A stretch of 46,715 nt of DNA from a virus, in the IMG/VR virus record IMGVR_UViG_3300007345_000070, positions 1 through 46,715 of that record. The stretch is one strand, 5' to 3'. This document shows positions 26,079-46,715 of the stretch, piece after piece. The first letter of the stretch is position 1. Each line of letters opens with the position of its first letter. A program made the translations under genes and the position numbers. Below the pieces are notes generated by a model, which saw only the letters and a list, made by a program, of their open reading frames with translations, did no database searches and was not told where the DNA came from.

Positions 26079-27023
26079 ATGCAAAATCTTAAATTACTAC
26101 AGTTACTGGAATCTGTCTTAGGTAAAGGTAAATCTACATCAGGTAATAACGTTGCATTTTTCTCACCATTTACTTCACATTATAAACCCAAATTAGAAAT
26201 AGATATCAATACAACTAGCGAAGGTCAAAATGCTTGGCACTGTTGGATATCTGATAAAAAAGGCAGAAGTATAAACAGTTTATTTAAACAAATGAACTTA
26301 GGTAAACAATATTTTGAACAACTGTCTAAAATAATAAAGTCAGCAAAATATAAAAACTTTGACAATGAAGTTAAACATGTAGAAACAATATCATTGCCTG
26401 AAGAATATATTCCATTGTGGAAACATAAAAAGACTCCTGACTTTCGTAATGCTATATCATATTTGAAAAAACGTGGAGTCACTATATTTGATATCTTGAA
26501 GTATCGAATTGGTTATTGTGAAAGAGGAGAATATAGTGGTAAAATAATTATTCCTAGTTATGATTGCCACGGCCAACTGAATTATTTTGTAAGTAGAGCA
26601 TATTATAGTGCCGATAAATATAAACACAAGAATCCAAAAGTAAGCAAAGACATCATAGGATTTGATTTGCTTATTAATTGGGAAGAGCCAATTATACTTT
26701 GTGAAGGATCATTTGACGCAATTGCAATAAAAAGAAATGCAATACCATTATTTGGTAAAATCATACAACCACAACTACAGAAAAAGATTATTGAAAAACG
26801 AGTCAAAGACATTTATATATGTTTAGATGCTGACGCTATTCGCAATGCATTGAGTATTGCAGAACGTTTTATGGGTGAAGGGTTAAATGTATATTTTATA
26901 GAATTAAAAGACAAAGATGCATCCGATTTAGGATTTCATCGTATAACAGAAATTATAGAACAAACTGGAGTAATGACATTTGAACAACTAATGCAACTCC
27001 GAATGGGTATTTTATGGAAATAA
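26079..27023 (+). CDS. gp61: DNA primase, gp61-like, with Toprim domain
   Basis: A 314-residue protein. The N-terminal 100 residues have the layout of a T4 gp61-type primase (FFSPFTSHYKPKLEID, then AWHCWISDKKGRSINSLFK). The catalytic Toprim domain follows, with the Glu motif ILCEGSFDAIA (Glu209) and the Asp motif ICLDADA (Asp250, Asp252). It makes the RNA primers for lagging-strand synthesis with the phage helicase, which is not in this window. The length is close to T4 gp61 (342 residues). Its end overlaps the start of the Mre11-Rad50 fusion gene by 10 bases, so the two are coupled. Confidence 0.85.
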   Translation: MQNLKLLQLLESVLGKGKSTSGNNVAFFSPFTSHYKPKLEIDINTTSEGQNAWHCWISDKKGRSINSLFKQMNLGKQYFEQLSKIIKSAKYKNFDNEVKHVETISLPEEYIPLWKHKKTPDFRNAISYLKKRGVTIFDILKYRIGYCERGEYSGKIIIPSYDCHGQLNYFVSRAYYSADKYKHKNPKVSKDIIGFDLLINWEEPIILCEGSFDAIAIKRNAIPLFGKIIQPQLQKKIIEKRVKDIYICLDADAIRNALSIAERFMGEGLNVYFIELKDKDASDLGFHRITEIIEQTGVMTFEQLMQLRMGILWK

Positions 27024-30000
27024 CAAAAGCAGATAAAATTTATCATATATCTGACGTGCATATTCGTACGTTAAAACGACATAAAGAGTATCGCCATGTA
27101 TTCGAAAACATGTTTGATTACATTAATAAAACTAAAACTGAAAATAGTATAGCAGTAGTTACTGGAGACATAGTTCATAGTAAATTGGATATGTCCCCAG
27201 AGTTAGTTAGAATGCTTACTGATTTTTTTAGAGGATTCAATATTCCTACGATTGTTATTCTTGGTAATCATGACATGAATCTAAACAATTTATATCGTGA
27301 AGATGCGTTGTCTCCGGTATTAGACATGATTGCTAATGATAACATTGTTTTTATAAAAGATAATGGTACCTTTGACTTTGCTGGAATAACTTGGAATCAT
27401 ATGGCTGTTGATGTTGAGCCTGCTCAATACGTAAAAGGAGAAGACATTGTAACAGACAACTTGAAGATTGCATTACACCATGGTGCCGTGCATTCTGCTA
27501 AAACAGATATAGGATATGAAATATCCAATGAGCATGTTACTACTGACTTGTTTTCCGGACACGACTTAACACTACTAGGTGACATTCATAAACCGGCTCA
27601 ATTCTTAACTGAAACTATTGCATACCCTGGCTCACTTATACAACAAAATCATGGCGAAGCATTAGATCATGGAATACTTGTTTGGGATGTAGAAACAAGA
27701 AAAGCTGAATTTGTAGAAATACACAATGATTACGGATATGTAACTATAGAAACAGAAGGCTCTCAAATTGTCAAGTCACCACATCGTATGCCTAACAAGC
27801 CTAGAATAAGAATCAAGTTCAATGAAACCAGTGCAGCAGATATGAAACGATTGGTTACTATGATTCGTAAAAAATACAATGTTCAAGATATTACCATACA
27901 ACGAACCATATCTGCACAAAATAATGCTGAGTCTGGAACTATTACAATTGGCAATGTTCGAGACGTTGAATATCAAAATACATTATTAACTGACTTTATT
28001 AACACTAAATTTCCGCAAGCAACTACCGATGAGTTAGATGCAATAAGACATATTAATCGATCTATTAATTCTAAACTCCCAGCAGTTGAATCAGTACGTC
28101 ATATAACATGGCATCCGGTATCATTCGAATTTGATAATATGTTTTCATATGGAGAAGGTAACCGAGTAGACTTTAATAAAATGAGTGATGTGTGTGGTTT
28201 ATTTGCTGCAAATACAAGTGGTAAGTCAAGTTTATTAGATGCTATAACATATACTATATTTGACAAATGTAGTAAAACAAGCAAAGCCCATGAAGTGTTA
28301 AACAATAAAAAGTCTGGATTTCGTGGAGTGTTTAAATTTAAAATGAATGATGTTCTTTATACAATTGAACGTGTTGGTACTAAGAAAAAAGACAACCATG
28401 TAAAAGTAGACGTTAACTTTTATACTGAATCAGAAAATTTAAATGGTGATGAGCGAAGTGATACAAATAAAAGTATACGTCGTTATTTAGGAACATACAA
28501 TGATTTTATTTTAACTGCATTTTCACTTCAAGCAGATAATAATAATTTTATAGAAAAGTCACAGCGAGAAAGAAAAGACTTATTATCTCAATTTTTAGAC
28601 ATCACGGTATTTGAACAACTTTATCATTTAGCAACAGATGAAATAAAAGAAACAGCTGGTCGCCTTAAAGCATTTAAGAAAACTGATTTTGCAGAAACAA
28701 TAACATCTGCAGACGCTGTTATTAATAACAATGAAAAATTAATTGCTGACACTAACAAAAAAGAATCAGACAAACAAACTAAAAGAAATCAATTACAAGA
28801 TTCTATAGTACAACTAATTGAAACAAAAAAACCTACAAGTTATGAAGGTGATGATATTAAAACGTTACAAGATACTGAAGTTGATTTAACTGAAAAAATA
28901 GAAAAGCTTCAAGAAACAATTGAAGAAACAGAACAAACAATTTCAGAATATCAAGATAAAATTGATAATATAGAACAGACAATTGCAATACAAAATTACA
29001 ATGTTGATAACTTAAAAGACAAAGACAAACAATTAACGGATACCGAATTTAAAATTGATGGTTTACGGGAAGAATTAAAAAAACAACAAAGAATAGTAAA
29101 TGATAAGCAAACAAAAATTGAACATCTTGAGACGCACAAATATGACCCAAATTGTGAATACTGTGTGTCTAACGTTTTCGTGCAAGATGCAATACAAGCC
29201 AAGAACGACATTGATCAAGATAGAAAAGTATTAACAGGTATTGAAGATGATATCGAATTAAGTAAAAGTTTACAAGATAGTTTAACTGTATATAAAACGC
29301 AACTTAACGATTATAATACTGCAATCGATAATATCGACACATATAAAAATAAAATTGAAATTGCTGAGTTACAACTTCAGATTCATGAAAATGATCTGCA
29401 AACCAAAGAAACAGAATTAGAAAACAACATAGAAAGACAAGAATCGTTTAAACGAAATGAGTCTGCTATTATTTGGAATAAAGATATTGATAAAAATATT
29501 AATGATTGTAAAGGTAAAATTGATACAATTTCTGGTCAAATAAAAACACTTCAAGATCAAATTAAAACCAATCATGGAGAAATACAAGTTGCTAAAACAA
29601 AAAAGAAAACAGCATTAGAGCAATTAGAAACATATCAGCAATTAGAAACAGAATATAAAGCATATGAATATTATTTAAAATCTGTTAAACGAGATGGTAT
29701 TCCGTATGAATTAATATCCAAGGCAATTCCTAAAATAGAATCAGAAATAAACAATGTTTTAAATCAAGTAGTAGATTTTAACATGGTTATGAATACTGAT
29801 GGTAAAAATATTAACGGATATATTATATATGATCAAGACAATTATTGGCCATTAGAATTAACGAGCGGCATGGAAAGATTTATATCTAGTTTAGCAATAC
29901 GCATAGCACTTATCAATGTTTCAGCATTACCACGTCCTAATTTTATAGCAATCGACGAAGGTTGGGGTAGTTTAGATGCAGAACATATTTCTGCAGTTGC

Positions 30001-30136
30001 AAATTTATTTGATTATTTTAGAACTAAATTTGATTTCTCAATTATTATATCTCACGTAGACACAATGAGAGATATGGTAGATAATTTAATTGAAGTAAAT
30101 AAAAATGACGGATACAGCCAGATTCTTCATGTTTGA
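27014..30136 (+). CDS. gp47-gp46: Fused Mre11-Rad50 recombination nuclease (gp47-gp46 in one chain)
   Basis: One uninterrupted frame of 1040 residues holds both halves of the SbcCD-type complex. Residues 1-340 are the Mre11/gp47 phosphoesterase: ISDVHIR (Asp14, His16), VVTGDIVHS, ILGNHDM, ALHHGAVHS and LLGDIHKP. From residue 366 (WHPVSFEFDNMFSYGEG) begins the Rad50/gp46 ATPase: AANTSGKSS (398-406), a long split coiled coil, the zinc hook C714-E-Y-C717, the signature LTSGMERF (949-956) and Walker B FIAIDEG with Asp981-Glu982. In T4 these are separate genes. The complex resects DNA ends for recombination-dependent replication and host DNA breakdown. The first Walker A glycine is replaced by Ala398. 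The upstream primase overlaps it by 10 bases. Confidence 0.92.
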   Translation: MEITKADKIYHISDVHIRTLKRHKEYRHVFENMFDYINKTKTENSIAVVTGDIVHSKLDMSPELVRMLTDFFRGFNIPTIVILGNHDMNLNNLYREDALSPVLDMIANDNIVFIKDNGTFDFAGITWNHMAVDVEPAQYVKGEDIVTDNLKIALHHGAVHSAKTDIGYEISNEHVTTDLFSGHDLTLLGDIHKPAQFLTETIAYPGSLIQQNHGEALDHGILVWDVETRKAEFVEIHNDYGYVTIETEGSQIVKSPHRMPNKPRIRIKFNETSAADMKRLVTMIRKKYNVQDITIQRTISAQNNAESGTITIGNVRDVEYQNTLLTDFINTKFPQATTDELDAIRHINRSINSKLPAVESVRHITWHPVSFEFDNMFSYGEGNRVDFNKMSDVCGLFAANTSGKSSLLDAITYTIFDKCSKTSKAHEVLNNKKSGFRGVFKFKMNDVLYTIERVGTKKKDNHVKVDVNFYTESENLNGDERSDTNKSIRRYLGTYNDFILTAFSLQADNNNFIEKSQRERKDLLSQFLDITVFEQLYHLATDEIKETAGRLKAFKKTDFAETITSADAVINNNEKLIADTNKKESDKQTKRNQLQDSIVQLIETKKPTSYEGDDIKTLQDTEVDLTEKIEKLQETIEETEQTISEYQDKIDNIEQTIAIQNYNVDNLKDKDKQLTDTEFKIDGLREELKKQQRIVNDKQTKIEHLETHKYDPNCEYCVSNVFVQDAIQAKNDIDQDRKVLTGIEDDIELSKSLQDSLTVYKTQLNDYNTAIDNIDTYKNKIEIAELQLQIHENDLQTKETELENNIERQESFKRNESAIIWNKDIDKNINDCKGKIDTISGQIKTLQDQIKTNHGEIQVAKTKKKTALEQLETYQQLETEYKAYEYYLKSVKRDGIPYELISKAIPKIESEINNVLNQVVDFNMVMNTDGKNINGYIIYDQDNYWPLELTSGMERFISSLAIRIALINVSALPRPNFIAIDEGWGSLDAEHISAVANLFDYFRTKFDFSIIISHVDTMRDMVDNLIEVNKNDGYSQILHV

Positions 30137-39274: not shown

Positions 39275-41104
39275 ATGGCATCTTTAAGAAAACGTTTACA
39301 GAACTTGTTCAGCACCAATGTTATTGTTCGTGCATATGGCAAAGATAAACTAAAAGTTGTTGATACAAACAAACTTCAATCAGTTGGAAACTTAGCACAA
39401 ACTAAATTAGCAGACCGATATACTAGGCTACATGGCTCTAATAAACATAAAGTAGGGGGCATACATGGAGGCTATGACTCTAATTACTATATGCATCAAA
39501 ATCGTATACAATTGTATACTGATTATGAAATGATGGACCGAGACCCGATTATACATTCGGCATTAGATATATACTCAGATGAGTCTACACTTGAAGATCA
39601 ATTCGGTGATATACTCACTATCAAGACCAATAACACCAAGATACAAAAAATACTTTATAATTTATATTATGACATCCTTAACATTGATTTTAATATGTGG
39701 GCATGGATTCGTAACATAACAAAGTATGGTGATTTCTTTTTAAAATTAGACATTGCAGATGAAATTGGAATCATCAATGCCAGACCATTTTCTAGTTATG
39801 AAATAGAACGTTATGAAGAATATGATGAGGTTACTGGTGAATATGATATAAAATTCAAACACATTGGCGGCTATGATGAATCATATGAAGTATTTGAAAT
39901 AGCACACTTTCGTTTGTTATCTGACTCAAACTTTTTACCATATGGTCGTTCTATGCTCGAAGGGGCAAGACAAGAATTTCAAAAACTAACAATGCTTGAA
40001 GACGCAATGCTCATACACAGAATAATGAGAGCACCAGAGAAGCGTATATTCAAGATAGACATAGGTAACATACCACCTAACGAAGTTGATACATTCATGG
40101 AACAGATTATCAACAAGATGAAAAAAATTCAACACGTTGATCAACAAACTGGTAATTATAATCTTAAGTTCAATCTAAATAATATGCTTGAAGATTACTT
40201 TTTACCTGTTAGGGGCGGACAGTCATCAACACAGATAGACACACTACCAGGAATGACATGGACTGGTACTGAAGATATTGAGTATGTGAAAAACAAAATG
40301 ATGGCAGCTCTTAAGATACCGAAGCCATTTTTAGGTTTTGATGAGGGGGTTGAAGGTAAAACTACATTAGCGTCAATGGATATTCGATTTGCTAGAACCA
40401 TTGAACGAATACAAAAAATAGTAATTTCTGAATTATATAAAATTGGTATTGTTCATTTAGCAACACAAGGTTATGAAGGTGAAGATCTTATTGGTTTTGA
40501 CCTATCATTGACACCACCATCGATAATCTACGATCAACAGAAAGTTGCATTGATGAATGAAAAAATAAATTTAGCTAACACCATGAAAGACAGCAAATTG
40601 GTGTCAGATAAATATATATATGAATTCATATTTAATATGTCCGAAGAACAGTGGCTACAAGAACGTGTTAATGTGATTGAAGATCTTAAGCTTAGATTCC
40701 GTCAAAATCAAATTGAACAAGAAGGTAATGATCCTACTATAACAGGTGTCTCATATGGTACGCCACACGACCTAGCTTCAATGCATATGAGCACTGATGA
40801 AGTTGAAGACAAAGATGTAGGGGGTCGACCTAAAGAAGGAATTAAATACGGACAACATGCAAATGAATTTGGATGGGATCCAACTGGTAAGAAAACTATA
40901 GATCAAGCATTTAATCCTGAAAATCAAAAGACTGCTTTTCAACCTAATCCTAGGAGGCGAAAGGTAACTATGACTCAAGAATCTCAAAATGTTTTAAATT
41001 ATTATAGAAAACAAAAAGGACAAAAAATTATAACAGAAACGTTTAATTCTTCATCTAAAGATAATGATTTAGGAACAATGTTAGATGAAAACAATATTTT
41101 ATAG
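39275..41104 (+). CDS. gp20: Portal vertex protein gp20
   Basis: A 609-residue protein of the T4 gp20 portal family. Typical stretches are YEMMDRDPIIHSALDIYSDE, WIRNITKYGDFFLKLDI, AHFRLLSDSNFLPYGRSMLE, APEKRIFKIDIGNIPPNEVD and the tunnel-helix region KNKMMAALKIPKPFLGFDEG. Twelve copies form the ring at the head vertex where DNA enters. The length is close to T4 gp20 (524 residues) with an extended polar C-terminus (NPENQKTAFQPNPRRRK). It is followed by core and protease genes in T4 order. Confidence 0.95.
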   Translation: MASLRKRLQNLFSTNVIVRAYGKDKLKVVDTNKLQSVGNLAQTKLADRYTRLHGSNKHKVGGIHGGYDSNYYMHQNRIQLYTDYEMMDRDPIIHSALDIYSDESTLEDQFGDILTIKTNNTKIQKILYNLYYDILNIDFNMWAWIRNITKYGDFFLKLDIADEIGIINARPFSSYEIERYEEYDEVTGEYDIKFKHIGGYDESYEVFEIAHFRLLSDSNFLPYGRSMLEGARQEFQKLTMLEDAMLIHRIMRAPEKRIFKIDIGNIPPNEVDTFMEQIINKMKKIQHVDQQTGNYNLKFNLNNMLEDYFLPVRGGQSSTQIDTLPGMTWTGTEDIEYVKNKMMAALKIPKPFLGFDEGVEGKTTLASMDIRFARTIERIQKIVISELYKIGIVHLATQGYEGEDLIGFDLSLTPPSIIYDQQKVALMNEKINLANTMKDSKLVSDKYIYEFIFNMSEEQWLQERVNVIEDLKLRFRQNQIEQEGNDPTITGVSYGTPHDLASMHMSTDEVEDKDVGGRPKEGIKYGQHANEFGWDPTGKKTIDQAFNPENQKTAFQPNPRRRKVTMTQESQNVLNYYRKQKGQKIITETFNSSSKDNDLGTMLDENNIL

Positions 41105-41998: not shown

Positions 41999-42642
41999 AA
42001 TCATTCTTAAAACAAATAAACGAAAGTTTTCATGCACTTGACGAAAAAGCAGCAAAACCTGATTATTTAGATTTTGATGGCGATGGTGATAAAAAAGAAC
42101 CAATGAGAAAAGCGTTAAAAGATAAAGAACAAAATGAAGCAGTAGATCAAGATAACGATGGTAACAATGATTTTGATGATGTTAAAATTGCAAGAATGAT
42201 GGCATCGGGTATGTCAAAAGAAGATGCACTTAAAAAAGTTCAAGAAGAAAAAGAAATAGACGAAGCATCTACTTCTGCAGGCGCAGGTTCATATATGACT
42301 CCAAAAGCTTTTGGTAAAGCAGATGATGATACTGTTGAAGCCATGGGATATAAACGAGTTCAAGAAGCAATGGATCAAAAGTATGAACAACTTATTGAAG
42401 GCTATAAGCATTTTGCTCTAGGAGAAAATAATTCTTCACCAACACAAACAGTAAATCGAGCTATTAGAGAAGTAGCAAAACAGTTAAAATCAATTGAAGA
42501 AACTGTTAAATACACAAGCAGATTAAAAACAGAATCTGGAATATCACATTCAGGATTTAGTAGCGGAACACATAATGCTTTAAGAAAAATATCAGAGCGA
42601 TTAATTAAAATATCAGAGAGAGTTAGATCATTAGGAGAGTAA
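41995..42642 (+). CDS. Prohead core-like protein with Asp-rich EF-hand-like loops
   Basis: A 215-residue acidic, helical protein. The start MKSFLKQINESF contains I-N-E (8-10), a possible prohead-protease site. Two Asp-rich loops, DFDGDGDKKE and DQDNDGNNDFDD, resemble EF-hand or dockerin calcium loops; such loops recur in core proteins of this phage group. A STSAGAGSYMTPKAF segment and a basic helical end (ALRKISERLIKISERVRSLG) follow. It lies between the portal and protease genes, where T4 has gp67/gp68. It is probably an internal core protein that is degraded or trimmed on maturation. Confidence 0.65.
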   Translation: MKSFLKQINESFHALDEKAAKPDYLDFDGDGDKKEPMRKALKDKEQNEAVDQDNDGNNDFDDVKIARMMASGMSKEDALKKVQEEKEIDEASTSAGAGSYMTPKAFGKADDDTVEAMGYKRVQEAMDQKYEQLIEGYKHFALGENNSSPTQTVNRAIREVAKQLKSIEETVKYTSRLKTESGISHSGFSSGTHNALRKISERLIKISERVRSLGE

Positions 42643-43691: not shown

Positions 43692-43700
43692 ATATTTATT
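43692..43700 (+). promoter_or_regulatory. ATATTTATT motif (candidate late promoter)
   Basis: ATATTTATTTATATAA lies in the 38-base gap before the ATG at 43717, 16 bases from it. It would drive the 43717-44434 pair including bS21. Confidence 0.5.
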
Positions 43701-43716
43701 TATATAATATAAAAGA

Positions 43717-44184
43717 ATGATAATGAGTAAGTTTAAAAAAATGTATAAAGACTTTTTTAGTTTAAAAGAACAAAAAGTAACATATTCTGATGACGAAGTA
43801 GCTAATTTAACAAAAGCTGCAGATGAAGCAGAACGTTTAAAACAAGCTATTACATCTGAAGAACTTATAGACGAAGCTCAACTAGTAAACAACTTAACAG
43901 ACTATGCAGGACATGTTATATATCAATTACGTGACCCGCAAGAAGCTAACGCAGTAGCCAAAGAAATACAACGATGGACTACTAAAAAGGGGTTTACTAT
44001 TATTGCTCATAAAAAATCCAAATCAGGTCGCACAGGATATTTTTATTTCAGAGTAGGAGAAGATCCAGGATCGGAATCACAAAAGATTCAAGGATATTTT
44101 GCACAACTACCCGAGCTTAACAAATTTGCATTTAAAGCCCCTAGAAGCAAAGCCCCAAGAAGAAGACCAAGTAGAAAATTTTAA
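43717..44184 (+). CDS. Small protein with basic tail and prohead-protease-type sites
   Basis: A 155-residue protein; the start may be 43717 (MIMSKFKK) or 43723 (MSKFKK). It has L-K-E near residue 17 (FFSLKEQ) and I-D-E followed by Ala near residue 52 (EELIDEAQ), both prohead-protease-type sites. Residues of about 60-130 form an alpha/beta unit (AVAKEIQRWTTKKGFTIIAH, then GRTGYFYFRVGE), and the tail is strongly basic and Pro-rich (APRSKAPRRRPSRKF). A basic tail on a protein made in the head module suggests an internal DNA-bound head protein, by analogy with T4 IP proteins. Confidence 0.6.
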   Translation: MIMSKFKKMYKDFFSLKEQKVTYSDDEVANLTKAADEAERLKQAITSEELIDEAQLVNNLTDYAGHVIYQLRDPQEANAVAKEIQRWTTKKGFTIIAHKKSKSGRTGYFYFRVGEDPGSESQKIQGYFAQLPELNKFAFKAPRSKAPRRRPSRKF

Positions 44185-44194
44185 AACAAGTTAT

Positions 44195-44434
44195 ATGAGT
44201 AAAAAACAAAAACACCACAAAAGTATCGTAGCCGGTACACCATCAGCTATTGCAGTAGTAGACAGAGACATTTCATTTGCATTGAGATCATTTAAAAGAA
44301 AAATGAAACAACTAGGAGTATTAGACGCATTAAAAGAAAATAGAACTTTTACTAAACCTAGTGTAAAACGTAGAGCTCAATTAATTAATGCAAAATATAT
44401 GCAGAAAATTAGAGATATACATCAATACGATTAA
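44195..44434 (+). CDS. rpsU: Ribosomal protein bS21 homologue
   Basis: A 79-residue basic protein from the ATG at 44195; a longer frame from 44099 overlaps the previous gene and lacks support. Residues 27-73 follow ribosomal protein bS21: ISFALRSFKRKMKQLGVLDA, then RTFTKPSVKRRAQLINAKYM. The FTKPSVKRR block is the form found in Bacteroidota bS21, which supports the host inference. The N-terminal extension (KHHKSIVAGTPS) is extra. bS21 sits by the 3' end of 16S rRNA and in Bacteroidota helps block anti-Shine-Dalgarno pairing. A phage copy could replace host bS21 or alter start selection. It is last before a strong terminator, just upstream of the Shine-Dalgarno-led scaffold and capsid genes. 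Confidence 0.82.
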   Translation: MSKKQKHHKSIVAGTPSAIAVVDRDISFALRSFKRKMKQLGVLDALKENRTFTKPSVKRRAQLINAKYMQKIRDIHQYD

Positions 44435-44455
44435 TAAATAAATAATTTTTTTATG

Positions 44456-44484
44456 AGTCCTAGCAGAAATGTTAGGACTTTTTT
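44456..44484 (+). terminator. Strong rho-independent terminator after bS21
   Basis: AGTCCTAGC (44456-44464) pairs with GTTAGGACT (44471-44479), giving nine pairs with one G-T, and a 6-base loop AGAAAT. A run of six T follows (44479-44484). It separates the bS21 group from the scaffold-capsid operon. Confidence 0.85.
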
Positions 44485-44504
44485 ACTGTTTTTGTACTAG
44501 CCTT

Positions 44505-44513
44505 ATATTTATA
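44505..44513 (+). promoter_or_regulatory. ATATTTATA motif before the scaffold-capsid operon (candidate late promoter)
   Basis: ATATTTATATTGG lies 20 bases after the terminator and 99 bases before the gp22-like ATG. It is the only copy with a long leader downstream. Confidence 0.55.
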
Positions 44514-44588
44514 TTGGAAATACGCTATCTCTATATAGTGTCTATAAAAATAATATTCTATTAAGATTTCAAATAATCTTATTTCCAA
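44514..44588 (+). promoter_or_regulatory. Structured leader of the scaffold-capsid mRNA
   Basis: TTGGAAATA (44514-44522) is the exact inverse of TATTTCCAA (44580-44588), so the two could close a stem around the leader. Inside lie a self-complementary CTATATAG and a hairpin AAGATT-tcaaat-AATCTT (44563-44580). The Shine-Dalgarno AAGGAG (44600-44605) follows 11 bases after the structure, 7 bases from the ATG, and stays unpaired. This may stabilise the message or enhance its translation. Confidence 0.4.
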
Positions 44589-44612
44589 AAAACAAATTTA
44601 AGGAGAAAACAA

Positions 44613-45698
44613 ATGGCAAAAACAGATTTGCTAAAAGAAGCAATTGCTGACGCTAAGGCCGTTAAAGAAACTGCATTAGCAAACGCAAAGATTGCGCTTG
44701 AAGAAGCTTTCGCTCCAAGAATCCAAAGCATGTTATCTGCTAAGCTATCCGAAGAACTCATGGATGAACAAGATGAGTTAGAAGATGCTGAATTAGATAT
44801 GGCTGCTGGTGAAGAAGGTGATGTACCTGCTGAACTAGATGGCGACATGGCTATGGATGATATGGGTGACGAAGGTGAACCAATGGATGTTGGTGATATC
44901 GAACTCGATACTGACATGGATGGTGAAATTGACTTTACTGGTGACATAATGTCAAAACCAGGAACGGAAGCCGAACCAGCTATAGACGACATGGGTGAAC
45001 CAGAAATGGATGCAGTTGATGCAGAATTAGACGGTCCGTCGGACGAAATGGGTATTGAAGAGATCATCAGAGAGTTAGAAGAAGATTTAGACGAAGGTGA
45101 AGGACATTATGCTGAAGAAGAAGAACCTGTAATGGGCGAAAATTATTCAGAAGAAAATAATGGAACTGACGAAGGACAAGTTTTAGAATCAACTGATAAA
45201 TCTATTGACGAACTTATCGAAGCAATCTTAGCTGAAGAAGAAGAAGAGAAAGAAGAAGAGAAAGAAGAAGAAACAGTTGATGAATCAAATTGTGGCGGTA
45301 CTCGTAAGAAAAACGAAGAGATGAAAGAAGCTCTCGAAGAAGCTTATGATACTGTAGGACATCTTAAATCAGTAATCAACGAAGTTAATCTTTTAAATGC
45401 AAAACTTCTTTACACAAACAAATTGTTCCGAAATTTTGAGTTGAACGAATCACAAAAAATGAAAGTGATTGAAAACTTTGACAGAGCTGGTAACACCAGA
45501 GAAGCAAAATTGGTATTTGCAACTTTAGCAGAATCATTCCATAAGCCTAGCAGAGGAAAAAAAGTAGTTAAAGAATCAAGATCAATGGCATCTAAGCCTG
45601 TTGCAACAACTGCTCCAAGCAAAGAGACAACTCAAGTATTAACTGAAGGCTTTGAACAAGCCAACCGTTGGAAGAAACTAGCGGGTTTAATTAAATAA
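44613..45698 (+). CDS. gp22: Prohead scaffold/core protein, gp22-like
   Basis: A 361-residue, extremely acidic helical protein in the gp22 position between the protease and the capsid gene. It begins MAKTDLLKEAIADAKAVKET with L-K-E at 7-9. It has a Glu/Asp-rich middle with DMAMDDMGDEGEPMD-type repeats and EEEEEKEEEKEEE, and a helical Lys/Gln-containing end (FEQANRWKKLAGLIK) of the kind that binds the capsid lattice. Numerous L-x-E tripeptides fit complete digestion by gp21 after assembly. A perfect AAGGAG Shine-Dalgarno sits 7 bases before the ATG, unusual in this window. It is longer than T4 gp22 (269 residues). Confidence 0.82.
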   Translation: MAKTDLLKEAIADAKAVKETALANAKIALEEAFAPRIQSMLSAKLSEELMDEQDELEDAELDMAAGEEGDVPAELDGDMAMDDMGDEGEPMDVGDIELDTDMDGEIDFTGDIMSKPGTEAEPAIDDMGEPEMDAVDAELDGPSDEMGIEEIIRELEEDLDEGEGHYAEEEEPVMGENYSEENNGTDEGQVLESTDKSIDELIEAILAEEEEEKEEEKEEETVDESNCGGTRKKNEEMKEALEEAYDTVGHLKSVINEVNLLNAKLLYTNKLFRNFELNESQKMKVIENFDRAGNTREAKLVFATLAESFHKPSRGKKVVKESRSMASKPVATTAPSKETTQVLTEGFEQANRWKKLAGLIK

Positions 45699-45722
45699 CT
45701 TTAAAACAAAGGAAACGAAAAA

Positions 45723-46715
45723 ATGAGTTTAAATTCATTATTACAAAGTCCTGATGCCTCTCAAAGAAATGCTGTTAAAGCACACGTTTCTAAATGGGAG
45801 AAAACAGGTCTTTTAGAAGGTCTATCTAATGAGACTGAAAAAGCCGGTATGGCTACTTTGCTTGAAAACCAAGCAAGACAATTAGTAAAAGAAGCAAATG
45901 CTACAGGTACAGCAGCTGGTTCTGAGGAATGGGCAGGAGTTGCTCTTCCATTAGTAAGAAGAATCTTTGCTGAATTTGCAGCTAAAGAATTCGTATCAGT
46001 ACAACCAATGAACTTACCATCAGGTCTAGTATTTTACTTAGACTTTAAATATGGTACAGCTCGTCCAGGATTTGATGATGATAATGCCGATCCAGTATCA
46101 GCAAACGGTCATCCATTTGGAACTCCAGAAGCTGACGATTCAATGTTTGGTGTTACTAATACATCAGGTGATCCATCAGGTGGTCTTTATGGTGCAGGTA
46201 GATTTGGATATTCAATTCCAAACGCAACTGGCGTTGCCGCAACTGTATCTGCAGGAGCCTCTACAGGTTCAGGAGCTGCTCACACAGCTGCAACTAGTGC
46301 ATCATTGAACTTTGATTCACTTTACACTGCTAATTCTGGTCAGTATTTTAATTTAACAGTACCAGTACCAACTGATGCTGATGCATTAGCAGTTAGATCA
46401 TTTACTTTGATTTCTGGTTCAACTGAAATTATTCCTGTACAAGCATTCTCAACTATTGACGCTAACTTTACAGCATCAATGGTAGTAACTGCTTCATTGG
46501 CAGGCGGTGCAACTGGTATTCAAGTAGCAATCGATAACAATGGCTTGAATGTTAACTATAGCAAAGCTCCAACCGATATTACAAGAGGTGACTTTGAAGA
46601 TGCTAATCCGTTTAAAGGATCTGGTGCTAATACTGGTATCGATGATGGTACAGATATTGACATTCCAGAAGTTAACTTAGAACTTCAGTCTGAGCCAATC
46701 GTTGCTAAGACTCGT
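45723..46715 (+). CDS. gp23: Major capsid protein gp23, cut by the right edge
   Basis: The first 331 residues of the T4 gp23 family run to the right edge without a stop. Diagnostic stretches are KWEKTGLLEGLSNE, MATLLENQARQLVKEAN, GVALPLVRRIFAEFAAKEFV and SVQPMNLPSGLVFYLDFKYG. The N-terminus contains possible prohead cleavage sites (L-L-E followed by Gly near residues 30-33; V-K-E followed by Ala near 56-59), as expected for a gp23 that is trimmed during maturation. An AAAGGA Shine-Dalgarno lies 9 bases before the ATG. Base composition is slightly richer in G+C than the tail genes, in line with very high expression. Confidence 0.95.
   Translation, partial: MSLNSLLQSPDASQRNAVKAHVSKWEKTGLLEGLSNETEKAGMATLLENQARQLVKEANATGTAAGSEEWAGVALPLVRRIFAEFAAKEFVSVQPMNLPSGLVFYLDFKYGTARPGFDDDNADPVSANGHPFGTPEADDSMFGVTNTSGDPSGGLYGAGRFGYSIPNATGVAATVSAGASTGSGAAHTAATSASLNFDSLYTANSGQYFNLTVPVPTDADALAVRSFTLISGSTEIIPVQAFSTIDANFTASMVVTASLAGGATGIQVAIDNNGLNVNYSKAPTDITRGDFEDANPFKGSGANTGIDDGTDIDIPEVNLELQSEPIVAKTR

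Follow-up and report, generated by a model that had tools for sequence, protein, structure and literature searches.

An arm-bearing phage bS21 and Shine-Dalgarno-led late virion genes in a group of T4-like phages suggest retuning of the ribosome late in infection

Why does a virus carry its own ribosomal protein bS21, placed among the genes of its virion? We addressed this question in a window of 46,715 nucleotides, positions 1 to 46,715 of the incomplete virus record IMGVR_UViG_3300007345_000070, which is T4-like as judged from its portal, prohead protease, terminase and Gp23 capsid genes. Whether specialised ribosomes pick particular mRNAs is debated, and the role of phage bS21 bears on that debate. 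In Flavobacterium johnsoniae, bS21 and the region around its Tyr54, a residue stacked on A1534 in the anti-Shine-Dalgarno (anti-SD) tail, control the access to the anti-SD, and altered ribosomes can favour SD-led messages (McNutt et al. 2023, PMC9976891). The existence of phage bS21, its late expression, ribosome substitution, N-terminal extensions and a preference for phage mRNA have already been proposed or partly shown (PMC6375957, PMC7162821, PMC9723584). In the part of the literature covered, we found no report in which phage bS21 is connected with SD-led late genes of Bacteroidota phages.

The phage bS21 and its gene neighbourhood

The gene, the relevant parts of its product and its neighbours are the following.

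39275..41104, +, portal protein (T4 Gp20; PF07230, E 1.1e-64), without SD, the within-phage contrast
42646..43266, +, prohead core protease, Peptidase_S77 (PF03420, E 3.5e-30)
43692..43699, +, late-promoter-like motif ATATTTAT, 5' of the gene preceding bS21, from 8-mer enrichment
43717..44184, +, gene of unknown function, 155 residues, directly 5' of bS21, a conserved neighbour
44195..44434, +, phage bS21 gene, 79 aa (PF01165, E 5.2e-11)
44195..44236, +, N-terminal extension of bS21, residues 1-14, MSKKQKHHKSIVAG, not in F. johnsoniae bS21
44348..44374, +, FTKPSVKRR block, residues 52-60, from alignment to 7jil_z
44396..44398, +, codon of Tyr68, equivalent to F. johnsoniae Tyr54, from alignment to 7jil
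44455..44480, +, intrinsic-terminator-like hairpin just 3' of bS21 (11-pair stem and T tail)
44505..44512, +, late-promoter-like motif ATATTTAT for the scaffold-capsid unit
44613..45698, +, prohead scaffold-type gene, by position and relatives
45723..46715, +, major capsid protein, T4 Gp23 family (PF07068, E 5.6e-13), running off the window end

The product of 44195-44434 matched PF01165 with 42.5 bits against a cut-off of 27, and Pfam, PDB and PHROGs agreed on bS21, so that the identity given in the original prediction was correct, as was the presence of the FTKPSVKRR block. It is the only bS21 in the record, and a PF01165 match was also obtained in 11 of 12 related records. The best solved relatives were the bS21 of F. 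johnsoniae (7jil) and then that of one other ribosome, 9i5v. With a bS21 profile the F. johnsoniae protein scored 44, while the best of 299 sampled Pseudomonadota, the only phylum compared, reached 32. A match in a Rhizobium sensor kinase, the sole one in a search of genome contigs, was discarded as spurious.

Relatives of the protein were collected from viral contigs (18 close, about 66 distinct in the wider set), and the conservation figures were calculated with the 54 members of the window clade. The start codon was conserved in these 54 distinct relatives, and residues 1-14 were the most conserved part of the protein, with 68% mean pairwise identity against 42-49% elsewhere; M1, K6, H8 and G14 were invariant and the mean net charge of this arm was about +3.4. 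The extra N-terminal extension that had been postulated is therefore real. In the AlphaFold model (mean pLDDT 76, pTM 0.40) the arm was of low confidence and mostly unstructured, and the three predicted helices (residues 26-40, 42-50 and 55-77) are consistent with the small helical fold expected of bS21.

The residue equivalent to Tyr54 was Tyr in 40, Phe in 12 and His in 2 of the 54 relatives. Considering that an aromatic at this position has been described as unique to Bacteroidia (PMC9976891) and that the best solved relative is the protein of F. johnsoniae, the phage bS21 appears to be of the Bacteroidia type. We also considered that it might simply lack the residue that covers the anti-SD, and rejected this for the window clade, where the aromatic is kept at Tyr68. 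In a sister clade the position is occupied by Arg or Lys, and the extension is present with a different sequence. The Microcystis phage Mel-JY01 has a bS21 in the same slot (L115 5185-5409); its N-terminus differs, and the Tyr54 position is taken by Lys.

The bS21 gene lies downstream of the prohead protease gene and ahead of the scaffold gene. In the window annotation, terminase, portal, protease and capsid are all only a few genes away from it, and all annotated genes at 36-46 kb are on the + strand. Neither the product of 43717..44184 nor that of the scaffold-type gene had a Pfam or PHROG match. The ATATTTAT 8-mer was about 14-fold enriched upstream of genes in the window, and between 4- and 16-fold in almost every related record, bS21-free ones included, and it is likely a shared late promoter element; besides 43692 and 44505, it was seen upstream of genes at 15 further places in the window. 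Taking into account the terminator-like hairpin after bS21 and the separate ATATTTAT motifs, bS21 and scaffold-capsid therefore look like separate, neighbouring late transcription units.

The huge phages described by Chen et al. 2022 (PMC9723584) likewise carry a Bacteroidetes-type bS21 near terminase, portal, protease and capsid, likewise with an aromatic at Tyr54. In those genomes of 293-331 kb the gene is on the opposite strand, whereas in the T4-like group of the window it is co-directional, and the long conserved N-terminal arm of the window group is unlike the huge-phage proteins. Late expression of bS21 was seen in these freshwater Bacteroidetes huge phages and a ribosome substitution favouring phage transcripts was proposed; in the main text of that paper we found no analysis of SDs on phage genes. 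An extension is not peculiar to the window phage, as phage bS21 proteins with basic N-terminal extensions have been known since 2020 (Al-Shayeb et al., PMC7162821), and in the sections of that report covered here they are not tied to SD-led late genes. The bS21 of Pelagibacter phage HTVC008M, virus-encoded too but of Alphaproteobacterial type and from another host lineage, enters E. coli ribosomes, which are then nearly inactive in vitro (Mizuno et al. 2019, PMC6375957).

Shine-Dalgarno motifs and bS21 across the group

The pairing energies of the SD motifs were computed against a Bacteroidota-type 16S tail. Three motifs surround the bS21 gene.

42633..42637, +, SD AGGAG of the prohead protease gene (-7.8 kcal/mol; -4 or stronger in 54/54 clade members)
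44600..44605, +, SD AAGGAG of the scaffold gene (-8.2 kcal/mol; may pair with UUUCC at 44582-44586)
45708..45713, +, SD AAAGGA of the major capsid gene (-6.1 kcal/mol; kept in 53/54 clade members)

The scaffold and capsid motifs had been pointed out before and we found both. The accompanying statement that many genes lack a good SD was true but incomplete: a 4-nt SD core preceded 26% of the window genes and only 6% of in-frame ATGs inside genes, and the idea of a wholly SD-less genome was abandoned. The window is neither SD-less nor SD-rich, and across the phages of the group SD motifs were found on 12-34% of genes. Among relatives, the SDs of capsid, scaffold and protease were strongly kept, and the portal and bS21 leaders were without SD. 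In the window, SDs also precede some baseplate and tail genes. Across six clade records they extend to the sheath, tube and baseplate hub and to several unnamed genes of the tail region, with none on the primase, SbcCD and PhoH genes. A single 1040-residue ORF of the window (27014-30136) matches both SbcD-like and SbcC-like families, as if the nuclease subunits were fused.

The leader of bS21 itself showed no SD (pairing 0.0 kcal/mol), and 0 of 54 distinct relative leaders reached -6 kcal/mol. In F. johnsoniae, ribosomes without bS21 favour the very strong SD of rpsU (< -13 kcal/mol), and a weak SD (AGGA) has no effect even without functional bS21 (PMC9976891). The phage leader does not reach this strong autoregulatory SD, bearing in mind that our energy method differs from that of PMC9976891. 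By comparison with rpsU, the phage bS21 gene is SD-less and the phage late genes have weak SDs, which are of the same weaker class as AGGA. A conserved non-SD motif, (A)CAAGTTAT, abuts the bS21 start codon (44185-44194) in most relatives and is about 20 bases upstream in some.

The presence of bS21 was then compared with that of SDs in 177 loci in which the slot was covered, 117 with bS21 and 60 without; its absence was upheld when entire records of up to 297 kb were examined, and clades were defined on a capsid-plus-protease tree. With starts corrected, the capsid SD was found in 74/77 loci with bS21 against 7/56 without, and the protease SD in 59/63 against 12/54. By clade, all 54 members of the window clade have bS21 and 53 have the capsid SD; the Mel-type clade (15), whose bS21 has Arg or Lys at position 54 in nearly all, has it in 15/15, and a further bS21 clade (15) in 14/15. 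In the immuto clade (46) there is no bS21 and the capsid SD is found in 0/46, and the L299/L302 lineage has neither. The exceptions were L287, with bS21 and no SD, and the L321 clade (7), with no bS21 and the capsid SD in 7/7. A further exception is the huge phage LR756504, which carries bS21 and is without SD genes. In general, SDs are avoided by the relatives that lack bS21 and by other phages of Bacteroidota. The presence of bS21 thus goes with the capsid SD, a rule that a few lineages break; the correlation is based on approximately three independent lineage contrasts, and its Fisher p-values make the case look stronger than it is, because the sequences are related.

The scaffold gene required separate consideration, as its SD is part of a conserved RNA.

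44498..44612, +, conserved scaffold leader RNA, from covariation: hairpins, UUUCC, then the SD
44522-44541, +, hairpin 1
44562-44581, +, hairpin 2
44582-44586, +, UUUCC element, which may pair with the SD AAGGAG (helix 3)

In 67 sequences 98.6% of the cells were paired, and double-change cells numbered 217, compared with 48 in shuffles and no more than 45 in slid controls, figures that are favoured by the fitting of the alignment to the model. The leader is a well-supported structured element in its own right. It was detected 5' of the scaffold gene in every clade, including nearly all bS21-free loci (E up to 1), and it was absent from the unrelated Bacteroidota phages tested and from huge-phage loci. 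No Rfam family was matched at threshold. A sub-threshold match to the freshwater-2 RNA (RF02980) at 44563-44615, on the same strand and ending at the scaffold start codon, was rejected as membership, since it scored 22.5 bits where the gathering score is 49.9, and 20 related loci gave no match to that family. In the literature covered, we found no report of this leader RNA and no paper on freshwater-2 RNA or on Mel-JY01 itself.

Among bS21-free loci, with starts placed by the leader RNA, 20/56 scaffold SDs reached -4 kcal/mol and AAGGAG was present in at least nine, so the use of this SD as a separator of phages with and without bS21 was cut back. Because the leader RNA with its SD also exists in bS21-free clades, the scaffold SD is not specific evidence for a link with bS21, and the RNA accounts for part of its conservation without bS21. 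It could even be proposed that the scaffold motif is primarily structural, the UUUCC-GGAG pairing serving for instance translational control or mRNA stability with no relation to bS21. A covarying RNA in all clades and the joint presence of AAGGAG and UUUCC in at least nine bS21-free relatives (e.g., L233, L239, L248 and L258) agree with this explanation; helix 3, however, is short (4 pairs) and less well supported than helices 1 and 2, and the SDs of capsid, protease, sheath and tube, which do not have this leader, still track bS21. We regard it as very improbable. The original idea is partly supported, by the capsid and protease SDs, which track bS21 in the T4-like group, and by the SDs on late-promoter genes described next, but not by the scaffold SD, which occurs also without bS21.

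Late genes, early genes and the host

The timing of SD-led genes was compared in 14 records of phages with an arm-bearing bS21, taking TTTG...TAnnTTTG or close variants as the Bacteroidota-type promoter. SD cores were found before 128/329 late-motif genes (39%), before 4/58 genes with a Bacteroidota-type promoter (7%), most of these 58 belonging to the Mel-type clade, and before 296/1564 other genes, against 5% of internal ATGs. The comparison of late-motif with Bacteroidota-promoter genes gave a p of 3e-7. In the bS21-free immuto clade, SD cores were found on 0/70 late-motif genes. In T4, whose host uses SDs, 25/42 early and middle genes have them, so T4-like phages do not as a rule have an early class without SDs. 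This placement is the strongest evidence for what would be a late, SD-linked programme. The window alone showed no contrast between late-motif and other genes (SDs on 4/16 and 7/27, respectively), because almost all of its genes belong to the late region.

The host is probably a member of Bacteroidota, judging from relatives. One of them, G007, which has both SDs and bS21 (loci L154-L161), contains at least 17 Bacteroidota-type promoter repeats, TTTGG...GTATATTTG, and 12 Bacteroidota-type promoters were counted in it against 0.2 expected; no such promoter was found in the records of the window clade. Three other relatives (G001, G002 and G003) encode a GroEL whose best match was the ancestral FCB chaperonin, and that of G001 shared 72-74% identity with GroELs from Bacteroidota plasmids and 68% with Rhizobium. 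These FCB-type GroEL genes are located as follows.

L132, 13471-15093
L140, 9298-10926
L153, 1576-3186

As host evidence, tRNA genes gave nothing in the window, which has none, and there are few in relatives. The closest isolates by capsid and portal were immuto, a phage of Flavobacterium, and Mel-JY01, recorded from a cyanobacterium and SD-rich; with the latter among the closest isolates, a host outside Bacteroidota is possible.

The strength of an SD generally tracks expression demand. The host could accordingly be a moderate SD user, or no SD-blind Bacteroidota at all, in which the SDs mark highly expressed genes and the phage bS21 merely replaces the host protein. The SD motifs on 12-34% of the genes of these phages fit this explanation, and so does Mel-JY01, with its recorded host, its many SDs and bS21 in the same slot. 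It does not agree with the SD-less state of the Bacteroidota-promoter genes in the same phages (4/58, unlike the 25/42 of T4), with the affinities of GroEL and bS21, which point to FCB/Bacteroidota, nor with an aromatic at position 54 described as exclusive to Bacteroidia (PMC9976891). We consider such a host unlikely, although its weight is far from negligible.

Possible role of the arm in the ribosome

The coexistence of an arm-bearing bS21 and SD-led late virion genes in this group suggests a late retuning of the ribosome by the virus. The analysis shows the identity and position of the protein, the conservation of its arm, and the placement of the SDs with their correlation to bS21, from which a Bacteroidota host, an incorporation into ribosomes and the steps of a mechanism are deduced. 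Our preferred explanation, which is tentative and to which we give somewhat less than an even chance, is that the phage bS21 is made late and enters the host 30S subunit, that this is coupled to the SDs on late virion genes, and that the arm favours SD-led messages. In such a mechanism, the early genes, behind host-type promoters and SD-less, would be suited to SD-blind host ribosomes. The bS21 message, SD-less as well, could be translated by these same ribosomes and would stay outside the host rpsU circuit. Once made, the protein would most likely exchange into host 30S subunits, and its conserved basic arm, which we infer to lie near the mRNA and the anti-SD, would favour the pairing of SD-led late messages.

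The parallel with F. johnsoniae that was originally drawn does not sustain this mechanism, since it concerns ribosomes without bS21 or its C-terminus, while the phage protein keeps Tyr68 and the phage SDs are of the weak class. The aromatic equivalent to Tyr54 argues against the mechanism, as it predicts that the anti-SD stays covered. Considering that weak SDs do not respond to the loss of bS21 in F. johnsoniae, an active role of the arm would be needed.

The same residue is what would be expected if the phage bS21 were a maintenance part, which refills ribosomes as the supply of host bS21 fails with the loss of host rpsU mRNA and, like the host protein, leaves the anti-SD covered, the SDs of late genes having another purpose. 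It is known that bS21 is an essential protein that binds loosely and can be exchanged (PMC9976891, PMC6375957), and other bS21-bearing Bacteroidota phages have no SDs, both of which are in line with maintenance. Such a role leaves unexplained that the SDs of capsid, protease, sheath and tube track bS21 and that the arm is the most conserved region of the protein, and we take it to be fairly improbable.

Returning to an arm that favours SD-led messages, a translation in two stages in SD-blind Bacteroidota cells can be envisaged, in which the SD-less early genes and bS21 would be read by host ribosomes and the arm-bearing bS21 would then make ribosomes SD-responsive, favouring the virion genes. 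We hold this to be possible, but doubtful. If true, it would represent a virus-made specialised ribosome matched to the coding of its own genome, with a structured scaffold leader RNA in addition. The prediction is that, upon substitution of the arm-bearing phage bS21 for the host protein, SD-led late leaders gain and SD-less early leaders do not. The exceptions provide natural controls for it: bS21 without SDs, SDs without bS21, and bS21 without the arm.
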